From contig NZ_JAHBGB010000002.1 of the NCBI RefSeq assembly GCF_018390555.1, positions 372,001 through 436,000 on the forward strand: a stretch of 64,000 bases of DNA. Direction: 5' to 3'. The position numbers and the translations under genes were made by a program. The notes under the pieces are model-generated. The model had not been told where the DNA came from. It saw nothing but the letters and a program-made list of their open reading frames with translations, and searched no databases. Position 1 is the first letter of the stretch; the number at the start of each line of letters is the position of its first letter. The DNA is from Ancylobacter oerskovii. GTDB taxonomy: Bacteria > Pseudomonadota > Alphaproteobacteria > Rhizobiales > Xanthobacteraceae. This document shows positions 16,050 to 20,190 of this stretch, piece after piece.

Positions 16050-16853
16050 TCACCACGCCGGCAGGATGGCGCCCTTGAAGCGGGTGAGGAGGAAATCCTT
16101 CACTTCCGGCGACTGATAGGCCTTCACCAGCTTCGCCACCGCCGGCTTGCCCTCGTCACCGGCGCGCACGGCGATGAAGTTGCCATACGGGTTGTCGGTA
16201 CGGCTCTCCTGGATCAGCGCGTCCTTGCGGGGATCGAGCTTGGCGCCGAGCGCGTAATTGGTGTTGATCACCGCGCCGTCGAGGTCGGCGAGCTGCTTGG
16301 GCAGCAGCGCGGCGTCGAGCTCGCGGAACTTCACCTTCTTCGGGTTGTCGGTGACGTCGAGCACGGTCGGCTGCAGCCCCTTCCCGGGCGCGAGCTTGAT
16401 GAGCCCGTTGGCCGCGAACAGGTTCAGCGCCCGCCCGCCATTGGACGGATCGTTGGGAATGCCGATCTGCGCGCCTTCGGGCAGGTCCTTGAAATCCTTG
16501 ACCTTCAGCGAATAGAAGCCGATCGGCTCGACGATGGTGAACCCGGCCGGCACGATCTTGTAGCCGCGCGCCGCGATCTGCGCGTCGAGATAGGGCTTGT
16601 GCTGGAAGGCGTTGGCATCGAGATCGCCGCGCGACAGCGCCTCGTTGGGCAGCGTGTAGTCGGAGAAGGTGACGACCTCGATGTCGAGCCCGTCCTTCGC
16701 CGCCACCTTCTTCGCCACTTCGGCGATCTCCTCCTCGTCGCCGCCGATCACGCCGAGCTTGACCTTGTCGGCGGCATGGGCGGGCAGGATGGCGAAGGCG
16801 GCCAGCGTCGCGCCGAGGCCGATGCCGAGCCAGCGGCGGGTAAGGGCGGTCAT
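16050..16853 (-). CDS. MetQ/NlpA-family binding protein, orphan copy
   Basis: A 267-residue periplasmic protein of the MetQ/NlpA family, which binds L- or D-methionine for MetNI import. Residues 1-27 are a Sec signal (GIGLGATLAAFAILPAHA) without a lipobox cysteine, so it is soluble rather than lipid-anchored. The mature part shows LGVIGGDEEEIAEV, NAFQHKPYLD, IPNDPSNGGRALNL and AVINTNYA, all family landmarks. It has no ATPase or permease of its own and is transcribed away from the metNIQ operon, so it may share MetNI and bring a different ligand. A 17-bp motif shared with two other sulfur amino-acid operons lies 72 nt upstream. Confidence 0.92.
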   Translation of the reverse strand: MTALTRRWLGIGLGATLAAFAILPAHAADKVKLGVIGGDEEEIAEVAKKVAAKDGLDIEVVTFSDYTLPNEALSRGDLDANAFQHKPYLDAQIAARGYKIVPAGFTIVEPIGFYSLKVKDFKDLPEGAQIGIPNDPSNGGRALNLFAANGLIKLAPGKGLQPTVLDVTDNPKKVKFRELDAALLPKQLADLDGAVINTNYALGAKLDPRKDALIQESRTDNPYGNFIAVRAGDEGKPAVAKLVKAYQSPEVKDFLLTRFKGAILPAW

Positions 16854-16924
16854 GTGTTCTCTCCTCGATGTCGTGAGGCGTCCGGCGCCTCGGCATCCTC
16901 AGGGAAGCCGGCCTCGCCCGAATA

Positions 16925-16941
16925 GTCTATTGAATTTATGG
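16925..16941 (-). promoter_or_regulatory. Shared sulfur-transport motif, site 1
   Basis: On the minus strand the site reads CCATAAATTCAATAGAC. It fits the consensus CYATAARTTYRRTWGAC built from three sites in this window, 11 positions invariant. It lies upstream of the orphan metQ-like gene. The G+C-poor site stands out from its surroundings. Confidence 0.55.
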
Positions 16942-17031
16942 AATACAAGCCATGCATATTTGTTATGCGATTTGCGCACGGATTGTGCAGGTTCCGCCTG
17001 TCGCACCCACTAACCCGGCGGCGGCATTAAT

Positions 17032-17048
17032 CTATAAGTTTGATTGAC
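17032..17048 (+). promoter_or_regulatory. Shared sulfur-transport motif, site 2
   Basis: The site reads CTATAAGTTTGATTGAC and overlaps a possible -35 element (TTGACT, 17044) of the metNIQ transcript. It is the most divergent of the three sites. It is oriented toward the SAM-II riboswitch. Confidence 0.5.
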
Positions 17049-17071
17049 TTCTCGCATCAACATGCTAGATA
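17044..17071 (+). promoter_or_regulatory. Possible sigma70-type promoter of metNIQ
   Basis: TTGACT at 17044-17049 and TAGATA at 17066-17071 are spaced 16 bp. Transcription would start near 17078, just ahead of the riboswitch. The -10 match is weak, so this is tentative. Confidence 0.4.
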
Positions 17072-17097
17072 GGTCGCCATCCGAGGGTAAAACCGTC

Positions 17098-17156
17098 GGG
17101 TCGCGGGATTTGACACCCGGCAGCTTGCACCGCGTCATCAACGCTAAAGCGCCACG
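17098..17156 (+). promoter_or_regulatory. SAM-II riboswitch
   Basis: The stretch carries the SAM-II (metA RNA) signature in order: P1 5' strand CGCGG (17102-17106), GATTTGA (17107-17113), loop, TTGCA (17125-17129), P1 3' strand CCGCG (17130-17134), and CGCTAAAGCG (17142-17151). SAM-II aptamers fold into a pseudoknot that binds S-adenosylmethionine and lowers expression of methionine genes, mostly in alphaproteobacteria. Here it heads the metNIQ transport operon. Unusually, about 40 nt separate it from the first short ORF and about 370 nt from metN, so direct blocking of the metN ribosome binding site is unlikely. Confidence 0.9.
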
Positions 17157-17198
17157 GAGCGACTTCGTGGTCGGGCAACGAGCTTGAGGAGCTGAGCC

Positions 17199-17234
17199 AT
17201 GACCATGTGTTGTCGACGTCCCAAACGGGCCTGA
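17199..17234 (+). CDS. 11-residue leader peptide with tandem cysteines (MTMCCRRPKRA)
   Basis: A tiny ORF directly downstream of the riboswitch. The ATG at 17199 is preceded by TTGAGGAG at the right spacing, a stronger ribosome binding site than that of the next two ORFs. The peptide has two adjacent Cys codons, and its TGA stop falls in the loop of a GGGCC/GGCCC hairpin. The layout resembles amino-acid-responsive leader peptides. Translation and function are inferred. Confidence 0.5.
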   Translation: MTMCCRRPKRA

Positions 17235-17285
17235 GGCCCCTTCTCCGCCCTTCCGCCGAGACTGCAGGATGACCCGCCCGGCGGG
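17227..17285 (+). promoter_or_regulatory. Two hairpins after the Cys leader ORF
   Basis: GGGCC-TGA-GGCCC (17227-17239) overlaps the end of the leader ORF. CCCGC-CCG-GCGGG (17273-17285) follows 33 nt later. Neither has a clear T-tract; they could be attenuation structures or Rho-linked pause sites. Confidence 0.4.
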
Positions 17286-17309
17286 CATTCGACCATTGGG
17301 ATATTCGCC

Positions 17310-17513
17310 ATGAGCTCCGCATCCCTGTCGGGCGCCATCGAGGCGCCGCTGAACCTTTCCGAACCCACCCTCGACGAGATCCTCGCCGATCCGCTCGTCA
17401 GCCTGATCCTGCGCCGCGACGGGCTTACACCCGGCGTCGTGCGGGTGAAGCTCGACCGCGAGCGGCGGCGCCTCGCCACGCGCCTGGGCCCGGCCCTGCC
17501 CCGCGCGGCCTGA
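17310..17513 (+). CDS. Small protein between the SAM-II leader and metN, function unknown
   Basis: A 67-residue ORF with the core EPTLDEILADPLVSLILRRDGL. It resembles, from memory, short acidic-to-arginine segments seen in small uncharacterised Rhizobiales proteins (xLADPLVxLxxRRDGV). The codon pattern is like that of neighbouring genes, with G or C favoured at third positions. It ends 16 nt before metN, so it is in the same transcript and could be coupled to metN translation. The ribosome binding site is weak. It has no cysteine or transmembrane segment. I do not recognise a function. Confidence 0.55.
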   Translation: MSSASLSGAIEAPLNLSEPTLDEILADPLVSLILRRDGLTPGVVRVKLDRERRRLATRLGPALPRAA

Positions 17514-17529
17514 AACCGCCCCGACGGAC

Positions 17530-18714
17530 ATGATGCTCCAGAACGTTTCCGCCCCTTCCTTCCCGCCGGCCCTGTTCCGCGATTTCGCCGCCGCCCCGTC
17601 GGCGGCCGGCGAGGTCGCGCAAGCCCGGCCCGGCGTCGGGAACGGCCGCCGCAGCGACGCGGCCGGCGGCGGCGCCATCGTGCTGCGCGAGGTCTGCAAG
17701 ACCTTCCCCGCCCGCGGATCCGACGCGGCGGTGGAGGCGCTGGCCGACATTTCGCTCGACATCCCCAGCGGCGAGATCTACGGCGTCATCGGCCGTTCCG
17801 GCGCCGGCAAGTCGACGCTGATCCGCACCATCAACGGGCTGGAGCGCCCGACGAGCGGCGAGGTGATCGTCGACGGCGTCACCGTCAACCGGCTCGACGA
17901 GGCGGCGTTGCGCGCCGAGCGGCGGAAGATCGGCATGATCTTCCAGCACTTCAACCTGCTGTCCTCCCGCAGCGCCTTCGACAATGTGGCGCTGCCGCTG
18001 GAGCTTGCCGGCCTGTCCCGTGCGGCGATCCGCACCAGGGTGGACCGCCTGCTCGATCTCGTCGGCCTCGCCGACAAGCGCGACCGCTACCCGGTCGAGC
18101 TGTCCGGCGGGCAGAAGCAGCGCGTCGGCATCGCCCGCGCCCTCGCCACCGATCCCAAGGTGCTGCTGTCCGACGAGGCGACCAGCGCCCTCGACCCCGA
18201 GACCACCCGCTCCATCCTCGCTTTGCTGGCGCGGGTGAATGCCGAGCTCGGCGTCACCATCGTGCTGATCACCCACGAGATGGCGGTGATCAAGGAGATC
18301 TGCCACCGCGTCGGCGTCATCGAGGCCGGGCGCATCATCGAGGAAGGCCCGGTCGCGGAGGTGTTCGCGCATCCGCGCACCACCACCGCCCGCTCCTTCA
18401 TCGGCAGCCTGCCCGGCCGCGAGATCCCCGCCTCGCTGGCCGGCCGCCTCACCGACGACCCGGCCGGGGCGCGCCAGAGCGTGCTGCGGCTCACCCTCAC
18501 CGGCGAGACGGCCAGCCAGCCCCTCGTCACCCGCCTCGCGCGCGAGCTCGGCATCGACATCGCGCTGCTCGGCGGCCAGATCGACAGCATCGGCACCCTG
18601 CCCTTCGCGCTGCTCTATGTCGGCGTGCCGACCGCGGCCTGGGCGAGCGGCGCGGTCGGCGCGGCGCTCGACGCCGCCGGCGCCACCACGGAGGTGATCG
18701 GCCATGTTCTCTGA
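17530..18714 (+). CDS. metN: MetN: methionine ABC transporter ATPase
   Basis: A 394-residue ABC ATPase. Walker A is GRSGAGKST (about residues 88-96), followed by the Q-loop FQHFNLL, signature LSGGQKQR, Walker B VLLSDEAT and H-loop ITHE. The last ~95 residues form the NIL/ACT-like domain (RLTLTGETASQPLVTRLARE), which in MetN binds methionine and inhibits transport. An extra ~45 residues precede the usual start; a GTG near 17680 would give a normal N-terminus, but neither start has a strong ribosome binding site. It is the first transporter gene after the SAM-II leader and overlaps metI by 11 nt. Confidence 0.95.
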   Translation: MMLQNVSAPSFPPALFRDFAAAPSAAGEVAQARPGVGNGRRSDAAGGGAIVLREVCKTFPARGSDAAVEALADISLDIPSGEIYGVIGRSGAGKSTLIRTINGLERPTSGEVIVDGVTVNRLDEAALRAERRKIGMIFQHFNLLSSRSAFDNVALPLELAGLSRAAIRTRVDRLLDLVGLADKRDRYPVELSGGQKQRVGIARALATDPKVLLSDEATSALDPETTRSILALLARVNAELGVTIVLITHEMAVIKEICHRVGVIEAGRIIEEGPVAEVFAHPRTTTARSFIGSLPGREIPASLAGRLTDDPAGARQSVLRLTLTGETASQPLVTRLARELGIDIALLGGQIDSIGTLPFALLYVGVPTAAWASGAVGAALDAAGATTEVIGHVL

Positions 18715-19384
18715 CCTCATCTCGCCGGCCATCCTCAGCCTGATCGTCGATTCGACGCTCGAGACCCTCTACATGGTCGCCATCGCGGCGCTGATCGGCA
18801 CGCTGGCCGGCCTGCCGCTCGGCATCTTCCTGGCAACCAGCGGCAAGGGCGAATTGTTCGAGGCGGTGACGGTCAACCGCGTGCTCGGCCTCGTCGTCAA
18901 CGCGACGCGCTCGACGCCGTTCATCATCCTCGTCGTCGCCATCATCCCCTTCACCCGCCTCGTCGCGGGCACCTCGATCGGCACCACCGCCGCCATCGTG
19001 CCGCTCTCCCTCGCCGCCACGCCCTTCATCGCCCGCATCGTCGAAGCGGCGGTGCGCGAGGTCGACCAGGGCCTCGTCGAGGCCTCGCTGGCCATGGGCG
19101 CGACGCCCTTGCAGATCGTGCGCAAGGTGCTGATCCCGGAGGCGCTGCCCGGCCTGGTGCTCGGCGTCACCCTCTCGGTGGTCAGCCTGCTGTCCAACTC
19201 CGCCATGGTCGGCGCGGTGGGCGGCGGCGGGCTCGGCGACCTCGGCATACGCTACGGCTACCAGCGCTTCATGCCCGAGGTGATGCTGATGGTGGTGGTG
19301 GTGCTCATCGTCCTCGTGCAGACCGTCCAGTCGTTCGGCGAGACGCTGGCGAAGAAGGTCAACCGCCGGCTGCGGCGTCACTGA
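18704..19384 (+). CDS. metI: MetI: methionine ABC transporter permease
   Basis: A 226-residue inner-membrane protein of the MetI family with five or six hydrophobic segments. It shows TLYMVAIAALIGTLAGLPLGIFLATS near the N-terminus, NATRSTPFIIL, and the EAA-type loop EASLAMGATPLQIVRKVLIPEALPG that docks on MetN. It forms the homodimeric channel for methionine. The start overlaps the metN end by 11 nt, which suggests coupled translation. metQ follows after 26 nt. Confidence 0.96.
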   Translation: MFSDLISPAILSLIVDSTLETLYMVAIAALIGTLAGLPLGIFLATSGKGELFEAVTVNRVLGLVVNATRSTPFIILVVAIIPFTRLVAGTSIGTTAAIVPLSLAATPFIARIVEAAVREVDQGLVEASLAMGATPLQIVRKVLIPEALPGLVLGVTLSVVSLLSNSAMVGAVGGGGLGDLGIRYGYQRFMPEVMLMVVVVLIVLVQTVQSFGETLAKKVNRRLRRH

Positions 19385-19410: not shown

Positions 19411-20190
19411 ATGCTCACGCGCTCCACCCTTGCGGCGCTTGCCTTCCTTCTCGCGGCCGGCGGCGCCGAGGCCGAGACCATCCGCATCGCCGCCACGCCC
19501 GGCCCGCACGCGCAGATCCTGGAGGCGGTGAAGCCGGTCGCCGCCGCCAAGGGCCTCGACATCAAGATCCTCGAATTCTCCGACTATGTGGTGCCGAACC
19601 AGGCGCTCGACGCCGGCGAGATCGAGGCCAACTCGTTCCAGAACCTGCCCTATCTCGACAACCAGAAGGCCGACCGCGGCTACAAGATCGAGCCGGTGGC
19701 GCTCACGGTGAACTTCCCGCTCGGCATCTATTCCAGGAAGTGGAAGAGCTGGGCCGAGGTGCCGGACGGCGCCAGCATCGCCATCCAGAACGACCCCACC
19801 AATGGCGGGCGCTCGCTGCTGCTCCTGCAGGACAAGGGCGTCATCAAGCTGAAGGACGGCGTCGGCTTCAAGCCGACCATCATCGACATCGTCGAGAACC
19901 CGAAGAAGCTGCGCTTCGTCGAGCTCGAGGCGGCGCAGACGCCGCGCGCGCTGGACGATGTCGACGCCGCCGCCATCAACACCAATTACGCGGTGTCGGC
20001 CGGCCTCGACCCTGTGAAGGGGCCGATCCTCAAGGAGGAGGCCAAGGGCCCCTATGTGAACCTCATTGCCGTGCGCAGCGTCGACAAGGACAAGCCCTGG
20101 GTGAAGACGCTGGTCGAGGCCTACCACTCGCCGGAGGTGAAGGCGTTCGTCGCGGAGAAGTTCAAGGGCTCGGTGCTGACCTCCTGGTGA
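19411..20190 (+). CDS. metQ: MetQ: methionine-binding protein
   Basis: A 259-residue binding protein with a Sec signal (LAALAFLLAAGGAEA, cleavage near residue 21) and no lipobox. Landmarks are NSFQNLPYLDNQ, IQNDPTNGGRSLLL and AAINTNYAVSAGL. It delivers methionine to MetNI. It has the same length and layout as the orphan MetQ-like protein across the leader region, but the two differ at many positions, so they are old paralogues. A hairpin at 20209-20234 may end the operon. Confidence 0.95.
   Translation: MLTRSTLAALAFLLAAGGAEAETIRIAATPGPHAQILEAVKPVAAAKGLDIKILEFSDYVVPNQALDAGEIEANSFQNLPYLDNQKADRGYKIEPVALTVNFPLGIYSRKWKSWAEVPDGASIAIQNDPTNGGRSLLLLQDKGVIKLKDGVGFKPTIIDIVENPKKLRFVELEAAQTPRALDDVDAAAINTNYAVSAGLDPVKGPILKEEAKGPYVNLIAVRSVDKDKPWVKTLVEAYHSPEVKAFVAEKFKGSVLTSW

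Follow-up and report, generated by a model that had tools for sequence, protein, structure and literature searches.

A Probable Cysteine Leader-peptide Attenuator behind a Hairpin-extended SAM-II Aptamer in Alphaproteobacteria

Introduction

In the window, the whole 64,000-nucleotide stretch of DNA analyzed here, an open reading frame (ORF) of 11 codons with two adjacent cysteine codons lies between a SAM-II-like aptamer and the metNIQ genes. Is this short ORF part of a regulatory leader, and if so, which signals might the leader read and how might they reach the genes behind it? The original prediction was a cysteine-responsive attenuator stacked behind the riboswitch, which together would sense SAM through RNA and Cys-tRNA through translation.

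Leaders of a comparable build exist. In the Salmonella mgtA leader, a Mg2+-sensing RNA is combined with the proline-codon peptide MgtL. That system resembles the one described here in that an RNA sensor and a codon-sensing upstream ORF (uORF) share one leader, and it differs in its ligands and genes, with no known homology. Cysteine-responsive attenuators have reportedly been described in mycobacteria by Canestrari et al. 2020. The available portions of PMC9094748 and PMC13236596 cite that study. In Actinobacteria, poly-cysteine leader peptides (predicted cys leaders) are described, in the accessible sections of PMC1262725, as short ORFs with Cys codons near the stop that precede sulfur genes. 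On the basis of these sections, our leaders share the short ORF, the Cys codons near its stop and the sulfur genes downstream, but they belong to Alphaproteobacteria, are led by a Shine-Dalgarno (SD) sequence rather than leaderless, and lie behind a SAM-II-like aptamer. The sections at hand of four surveys concerned with SAM-II, riboswitches, methionine regulons and premature terminators (PMC1273637, PMC2258182, PMC4239095, PMC2965389) mention no cysteine leader behind SAM-II, and we found no such report in the open-access literature, a scope that leaves aside most subscription journals and preprints.

Results

A short ORF with tandem Cys codons in the metNIQ leader

The leader ORF and the genes that follow it are arranged as listed below.

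17186 to 17191, + strand: Shine-Dalgarno sequence GAGGAG of the leader ORF (from the sequence; an SD-preceded short ORF is present in 128/151 loci)
17199 to 17234, + strand: leader ORF MTMCCRRPKRA, 11 codons, ATG 17199 to TGA 17234
17208 to 17213, + strand: tandem Cys codons TGT TGT, the putative sensor codons (TGTTGT in 15/15 non-redundant loci of the genus)
17227 to 17239, + strand: hairpin GGGCC/GGCCC, whose loop contains the stop codon (from the sequence; stop-in-loop stems in congeners)
17310 to 17513, + strand: 67-aa ORF that opens the operon (window copy unmatched in Pfam and NCBIfam; similar ORF in congeners)
17530 to 18714, + strand: metN, ABC ATPase with NIL domain (best NCBIfam match MetN, TIGR02314, at 399 bits, yet below the curated cut-off of 499.7)
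18704 to 19384, + strand: metI, permease (profile match)
19411 to 20190, + strand: metQ, substrate-binding protein (profile match)

All sequence points of the original prediction are confirmed in the window. The 11-codon ORF is found between the aptamer and metNIQ, the order being SAM-II-like aptamer (17098-17177), uORF, 67-aa ORF and metNIQ. Its GAGGAG, 7 nt from the ATG, is indeed a better ribosome binding site than that of the next gene, as the region before the ORF at 17310 offers only TGGGAT. The adjacent Cys codons are present, and the stop codon does sit inside the hairpin, which is formed by GGGCC at 17227-17231, the UGA loop at 17232-17234 and GGCCC at 17235-17239. Since Cys accounts for 0.65% of codons in 37 genes of the window, an adjacent Cys pair in so short an ORF is already improbable by chance.

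A SAM-II-like aptamer extended by a hairpin

The RNA ahead of the ORF had been taken for a SAM-II aptamer. There is no gathering-level Rfam match in the whole window, where RF00521 (SAM-II) reaches 16.2 bits at 17093-17167 against a gathering score of 36, and no Rfam family reaches its gathering score in any of 20 scanned loci. We thus built our own covariance model, R1, from 30 aligned relatives (alignment A1). The elements assigned in this way are the following.

17098 to 17177, + strand: hairpin-extended SAM-II-like aptamer (78.7 bits with R1, the window copy being among its 30 sequences; 16.2 bits with RF00521; pair counts)
17102-17106/17130-17134, + strand: aptamer helix P1 (pair counts on alignments A1 and A2)
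17116-17120/17171-17175, + strand: aptamer pseudoknot P2 (pair counts on A1 and A2)
17152-17158/17164-17170, + strand: inserted hairpin P3 (pair counts on A1 and A2)

Alignment A1 contains P1, as CGCGG/CCGCG, and the SAM-II blocks GAUUUG, GCUUGC and GCUAAAG. Like RF00521, the element combines P1 and the GAUUUG/GCUUGC/GCUAAAG core with a loop-to-tail pseudoknot, P2, and lies upstream of methionine and sulfur genes. It differs from RF00521 by an extra hairpin, CCACGAA/UUCGUGG in A1, located between GCUAAAGCG and the 3' strand of P2. The P2 pairing reads GGAGC/GCUCC in most copies, CCCGG/UCGGG in the genus of the window, GAAGC/GUUUC in L016 and GAAGC/GCUUC in L044.

Across the 57 distinct rows of alignment A2, which was fitted to P1 and P3, 93.6% of cells pair, and pairing falls to 37-47% when the partner is shifted by 1-3 columns. 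P1 is paired in 57/57 rows and never varies, and therefore displays no covariation. For P2, which in the window's genus sits one alignment column out of register, 85.5% of cells are paired and three of five pairs have changes on both sides. The covariation score of the whole structure is 0.104 versus 0.064 for shuffled alignments, a value that none of 500 shuffles attains; counting the pairs that change on both sides gave no significant excess in A2 (67/500 shuffles). The SAM-II assignment thus stands for P1, the core and the P2 pseudoknot, while the element as a whole stays below the Rfam cut-off and is a hairpin-extended form. Judged by alignment and pair counts, this SAM-II-like form is missing from Rfam 15, and the inserted hairpin suggests why Rfam misses it. 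Canonical RF00521 is found above the cut-off in 113/119 family genomes, and the genome to which the window belongs has one such copy.

We also considered the SAM-II long loops family RF01726 as the identity of the aptamer and rejected it, as its best match in the genome (17.7 bits, cut-off 44) lies at another place. RF01726 is likewise a divergent SAM-II form from comparative genomics, and differs in being listed for Bacteroidetes and marine samples (PMC2864571, in the excerpts available).

The leader is spread over many alphaproteobacterial genera

A 261-base DNA query matched 23/149 genomes of the family, mostly over the aptamer alone and at most four times per genome, with 78-92% aptamer identity in other genera. 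Using R1 at E <= 0.001, we found matches in 71/391 genomes of the family (22 of the 71 solely through hits below 38 bits), in 82/397 of the order and in 74/385 of the class (50/277 genera), with overlap between the three draws. A DNA pattern matched at least 119 stretches in named genomes; the genera among the matches listed include Ancylobacter, Rhodoplanes, Bosea, Chelatococcus, Methylopila, Hansschlegelia, Microvirga, Labrys, Azospirillum, Niveispirillum and Nitrospirillum, besides others.

Our main set comprises 151 non-redundant loci from 35 genera and 13 families, with L100 (a copy of L099) and 17 more loci identical to others removed. Two of the 22 weak family matches (<38 bits), L109 and L110, were taken in, and a weak order match (G689) was left out. 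Within the genus of the window, a metN orthologue is present in 14/30 genomes, and all 14 of these have the aptamer; one further congener (G165) carries aptamer and uORF with no metN orthologue at the threshold used. The leader occurs twice, 90 kb apart, on contig G227:C67 (L099 and L100), the two copies being identical over the aptamer and the 200 bases compared, and a metN orthologue of equal score follows each copy.

Cys codons are enriched near the end of the uORFs

As the uORF we took the frame opened by the first SD-preceded ATG or GTG after the aptamer, a rule that may misplace the start at a few loci (L120, L121, L126, L136). With L087 and L134 reassigned by hand from a short uORF to a long ORF, the 151 loci divide into 128 with a short uORF (29 genera), 15 in which a long ORF follows at once and 8 with neither. 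Cys is found in 125/128 short uORFs of the main set, the exceptions being L023, L054 and L107; 91 have at least two Cys, 34 a single one, and 64 contain CC. In the genus of the window, the uORF of every one of the 15 non-redundant loci has two or more Cys codons side by side, and this comparison is the decisive evidence against chance. The uORFs are 6-64 residues long and represent 122 distinct peptides, among them MTMCCRRPKRA, MTKMCCPCCV, MTSHYCCP, MTRKCCRR, MIVVSGMDIEKPDGKMCCGCCCC and MNIATTSSLPAFSEMVHGACRMSCCCCCC.

The enrichment is specific to the reading frame. Cys makes up 316 of 3141 uORF residues (10.1%) in frame but 3.9% and 2.7% in the other two frames, and its share is highest in frame in 26/29 genera. 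Nucleotide-shuffled uORFs reach 3.5% (maximum of 200 shuffles, 4.6%), and in 150 ordinary genes of these loci the share is 0.65%, as in the 37 genes of the window. Within the uORFs, Cys accounts for 22.7% of the last 8 codons versus 4.0% of earlier ones. The ratio of TGT to TGC is 211:105 in uORFs versus 40:304 in ordinary genes, for which use of a starvation-sensitive codon or RNA pairing are possible reasons. At the last Cys of a uORF, TGT is found 104 times and TGC 22 times, and the next codon is most often CGN (Arg) or a TGA stop.

The same association is seen in two further sets. In the named set of 118 listed loci, which overlaps the main set (L248 and L268, for example, carry the uORF of L099), 96 of 102 short ORFs contain Cys, with peptides such as MTTCCP, MTCCCP and MTQAC. 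The best 29 new class-wide loci, among which the core of L346 is probably misplaced, have 26 short uORFs, of which 20 contain Cys, and the link between aptamer and Cys uORF thus looks looser further out. The short frame is hence conserved where the aptamer is kept, and these counts show that a SAM-II-like aptamer co-occurs with a predicted SD-led uORF, and with Cys codons close to the end of that frame, across many alphaproteobacterial genera. As a control, we applied the same rule to 30 canonical SAM-II loci, which yielded 13 short ORFs, 11 of them with Cys, and hence no clean negative control. Nine of these 11 share one common start, MIPACG, over a terminator hairpin, and we read the Cys ORFs behind canonical SAM-II as probable frames through a conserved terminator that lack a real Shine-Dalgarno sequence. 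At some loci the aptamer directly precedes a long ORF, with no Cys uORF in between (L010, L011, L026, L028, L119, L217, L218, L280, L281, L358, L364), and some of these long ORFs resemble in sequence what we take to be a sulfate-binding protein, MetX, OsmC and MetZ.

Could the Cys codons be explained by the RNA alone? The SAM aptamer might be the sole regulator, with the uORF relaying its state to the operon and the Cys codons arising from the needs of RNA pairing (UGUCG motifs). The frequent CGN codon after the last Cys and the location of the Cys region in predicted helices would fit such a relay. So would the S. meliloti metA leader, where a SAM-II aptamer acts on translation through a distant start (PMC9373788, as far as its text is accessible). 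Yet the excess of Cys is confined to the reading frame, and Cys clusters, CCCCC for example, use both TGT and TGC. Both observations point to selection on the Cys residue, and we consider a pure relay unlikely. In the accessible text of PMC9373788, metA resembles our leaders in having a SAM-II aptamer followed by a start codon, with effects of distance on translation; it differs in that AUG1 is in frame with the metA AUG2 and in that there is no Cys leader, neither "cysteine" nor "uORF" occurring in that main text on metA.

It is also very improbable that the uORF product is a small functional protein. An SD-led uORF at a conserved position would be expected of one, but the length varies from 6 to 64 residues and, judged by eye, sequences from different genera are unrelated except for Cys, which is often followed by Arg.

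Genes behind the leader

Downstream proteins that we searched include MetN-type ATPases with NIL domain, an SsuA-type and a taurine-type (TauA) binding protein, an SBP_bac_11 protein (presumably sulfate-type), PF03601 membrane proteins and a class V aminotransferase. Among them, and in some genera, are uptake genes for methionine, sulfonate and taurine. The leaders therefore have two hallmarks of leader-peptide attenuators, namely a short SD-led ORF with the cognate codon enriched near its stop and, for the proteins searched in some genera, downstream genes in sulfur metabolism. For a further hallmark, alternative structures set by the position of the ribosome, the folding results are suggestive in the genus of the window and mixed across all genera.

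Candidate output structures in the genus of the window

Three elements of the window could connect the uORF to the operon.

17218 to 17223, + strand: possible anti-Shine-Dalgarno sequence GUCCCA in the uORF, just after the Cys codons (RNAalifold, pairing probability)
17238 to 17260, + strand: C-rich, G-poor stretch, possible Rho-loading site (from the sequence; C>G trend in genera)
17297 to 17302, + strand: UGGGAU, the Shine-Dalgarno region that precedes the 67-aa ORF and may pair with 17218-17223 (RNAalifold)

We folded 14 congeneric leaders with RNAalifold, supplying no structure and leaving out of the 15 one (L098) that is nearly the same as L007. The consensus contains a helix of five pairs, 17218-17222/17298-17302, between the uORF GUCCC and the downstream Shine-Dalgarno sequence. 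Its outer pair is G-U in 8 of the 14 congeners, G-C in 5 and A-U in 1, all changes in the helix being one-sided and none both-sided; three of the five pairs are broken in one or two of the 14 sequences, and the covariation term of the consensus energy is small (-0.9). For pairing between the downstream Shine-Dalgarno sequence and the uORF, the folding model gives a probability of 0.88 in the window and a genus average of 0.70, with 0.17 in L007.

A second RNAalifold helix surrounds the stop codon, where one pair is swapped between C-G and G-C in 5/14 sequences. As this helix is one base out of register with that of the window, we relied for the stop hairpin on direct counts. The hairpin is kept in the sense that the stop codon lies in a loop closed by at least four Watson-Crick pairs in 10/15 congeners, with stems of different sequence (GGGCC/GGCCC, AGCGGC/GCCGCT, CGGC/GCCG), and in 47/128 uORFs overall versus 12-23 at eight shifted control positions. 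We rejected an intrinsic terminator as the output in the window, where no GC hairpin with a U run lies between the leader ORF and the gene; the interval 16850-17600 contains no sigma-70-like or intrinsic-terminator-like site. Of the predicted cysteine attenuator, the Cys uORF and the stop in a hairpin loop are thus found to recur, while an intrinsic terminator at the hairpin is not supported. In the window's genus, the output is likely control of the downstream Shine-Dalgarno sequence through pairing with the uORF, possibly together with Rho, as judged from the folding models.

Pairing with the uORF in other genera

Is the same output found elsewhere? In 90 loci from 25 genera, pairing of the downstream Shine-Dalgarno sequence with the last 60 nt of the uORF has a genus mean of 0.474, versus 0.249 with shuffled uORFs and 0.294 with uORFs swapped between genera (10 rounds each). 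Across all genera, the footprint of a ribosome stalled at Cys holds 49% of the uORF bases but only 26% of this pairing. Outside the genus of the window, the partner lies mostly upstream of the Cys codons, and this upstream part pairs better natively than when swapped (0/200); the part from Cys onward pairs no better than swapped partners (52/200). These two results led us to reject a universal anti-Shine-Dalgarno sequence just after the Cys codons, and because all-genera pairing there is no better than with swaps, we claim one for the window's genus alone. A modelled Cys stall gives the expected result in 21/25 genera, which counts as weak support because truncating the RNA raises accessibility anyway. 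So the expression platform may vary by lineage, queued ribosomes may matter, or the folding model may mislead. Terminator-like sites occur in 7/90 loci, none of them in the window's genus and four in a single genus (4/10 loci of g81).

In 22/25 genera, C outnumbers G in the 45 nt directly behind the uORF stop (p = 0.0006 versus coding sequence), a composition that would suit Rho. Such C-rich RNA also bears on another reading, in which the Cys residues of the nascent peptide sense metal or redox state as in CruR and arrest or release the ribosome. The accessible part of PMC9426467 describes CruR as a copper-sensing uORF with CXXC that acts by way of Rho; it resembles our leaders in its Cys-bearing uORF and C>G stretch, with C-rich RNA after the uORF here too, and differs in that it senses copper by the CXXC of a DUF2946 protein. 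Metal sensing agrees poorly with our uORFs, since CXXC is present in just 31/128 and is absent from the window ORF, while 34/128 have a single Cys. Between genera the peptides share little else, some being 5-8 residues long, and several downstream genes serve sulfur compounds. Peptides of 5-8 residues are too short to exit the ribosome tunnel. We regard metal or redox sensing as somewhat less probable still than the pure relay.

Coupling to the aptamer

The 3' strand of P2 is complementary to the start region of the uORF beyond what shuffles give (0/200), but pairs no better with its own start region than with those of other genera (132/200 swaps). Blocking P2 in the folds raises access to the uORF Shine-Dalgarno sequence in 16/24 genera and lowers it in 5, with the window unchanged.

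A model for the composite leader

Taken as a whole, we estimate at about 0.78 the probability that this is a cysteine leader-peptide attenuator behind a hairpin-extended SAM-II aptamer and hence a composite, sulfur-responsive leader. The presence and conservation of its parts are directly observed in the genome sequences, from which we infer that the leader would sense SAM and Cys-tRNA. When charged Cys-tRNA is scarce, a ribosome would stall at codons 4-5 and cover 17218-17223, which would otherwise pair with the downstream Shine-Dalgarno sequence at 17297-17302. Since a ribosome with its A site at Cys covers the 5' side of this helix, stalling should, in the folding model for the window's genus, free the downstream Shine-Dalgarno sequence, and the 67-aa ORF and metNIQ would be translated. 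With plentiful Cys, the ribosome would finish and leave, the Shine-Dalgarno pairing would re-form, and Rho may in addition gain access through the C-rich RNA left exposed.

How often the uORF is initiated would be set by the aptamer, and if so, SAM and Cys would both be read. In such a two-input gate, the 3' strand of P2 would pair either inside the aptamer or with the uORF Shine-Dalgarno sequence, so that uORF initiation would depend on the aptamer and opening of the operon on the Cys codons. That this gate operates in several alphaproteobacterial orders, making sulfur uptake answer jointly to SAM and Cys-tRNA, is a tentative proposal to which we give slightly less than even odds. One RNA leader may in this way read two ends of sulfur metabolism before it switches on sulfur-uptake genes.

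Repeated in at least 29 genera, the union of a metabolite riboswitch with an amino acid leader peptide that would read the opposite end of its pathway would be new to the open-access literature and would extend cysteine leader peptides from Actinobacteria to Alphaproteobacteria. Such a leader would offer a natural and easily mutated system for studying how one leader combines two signals. The uORFs also mark unannotated small ORFs and probable sulfur-regulon genes.

Small proteins and a divergent gene next to the leader

In many of the loci listed, a small ORF comes first, 60-90 nt after the uORF stop. In the genus of the window, a small protein with the motif EPTLDEILADPLVxLILRRDGL heads the metNIQ operon (17310-17513 in the window; L007, L091-L104). 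In many genera, a second small protein family of about 60-90 aa (YVIEV..TAGIVVRDG..FFAA) is encoded some 60-90 nt beyond the uORF stop (L006, L008, L016-L021, L040, L044, L071, L083-L090 and others); two partial members gave no Pfam match, and the protein may belong to the sulfur regulon. In the window, a second MetQ/NlpA-type binding protein is encoded divergently from the leader (16050-16853, - strand), and metNIQ thus has two binding proteins nearby.
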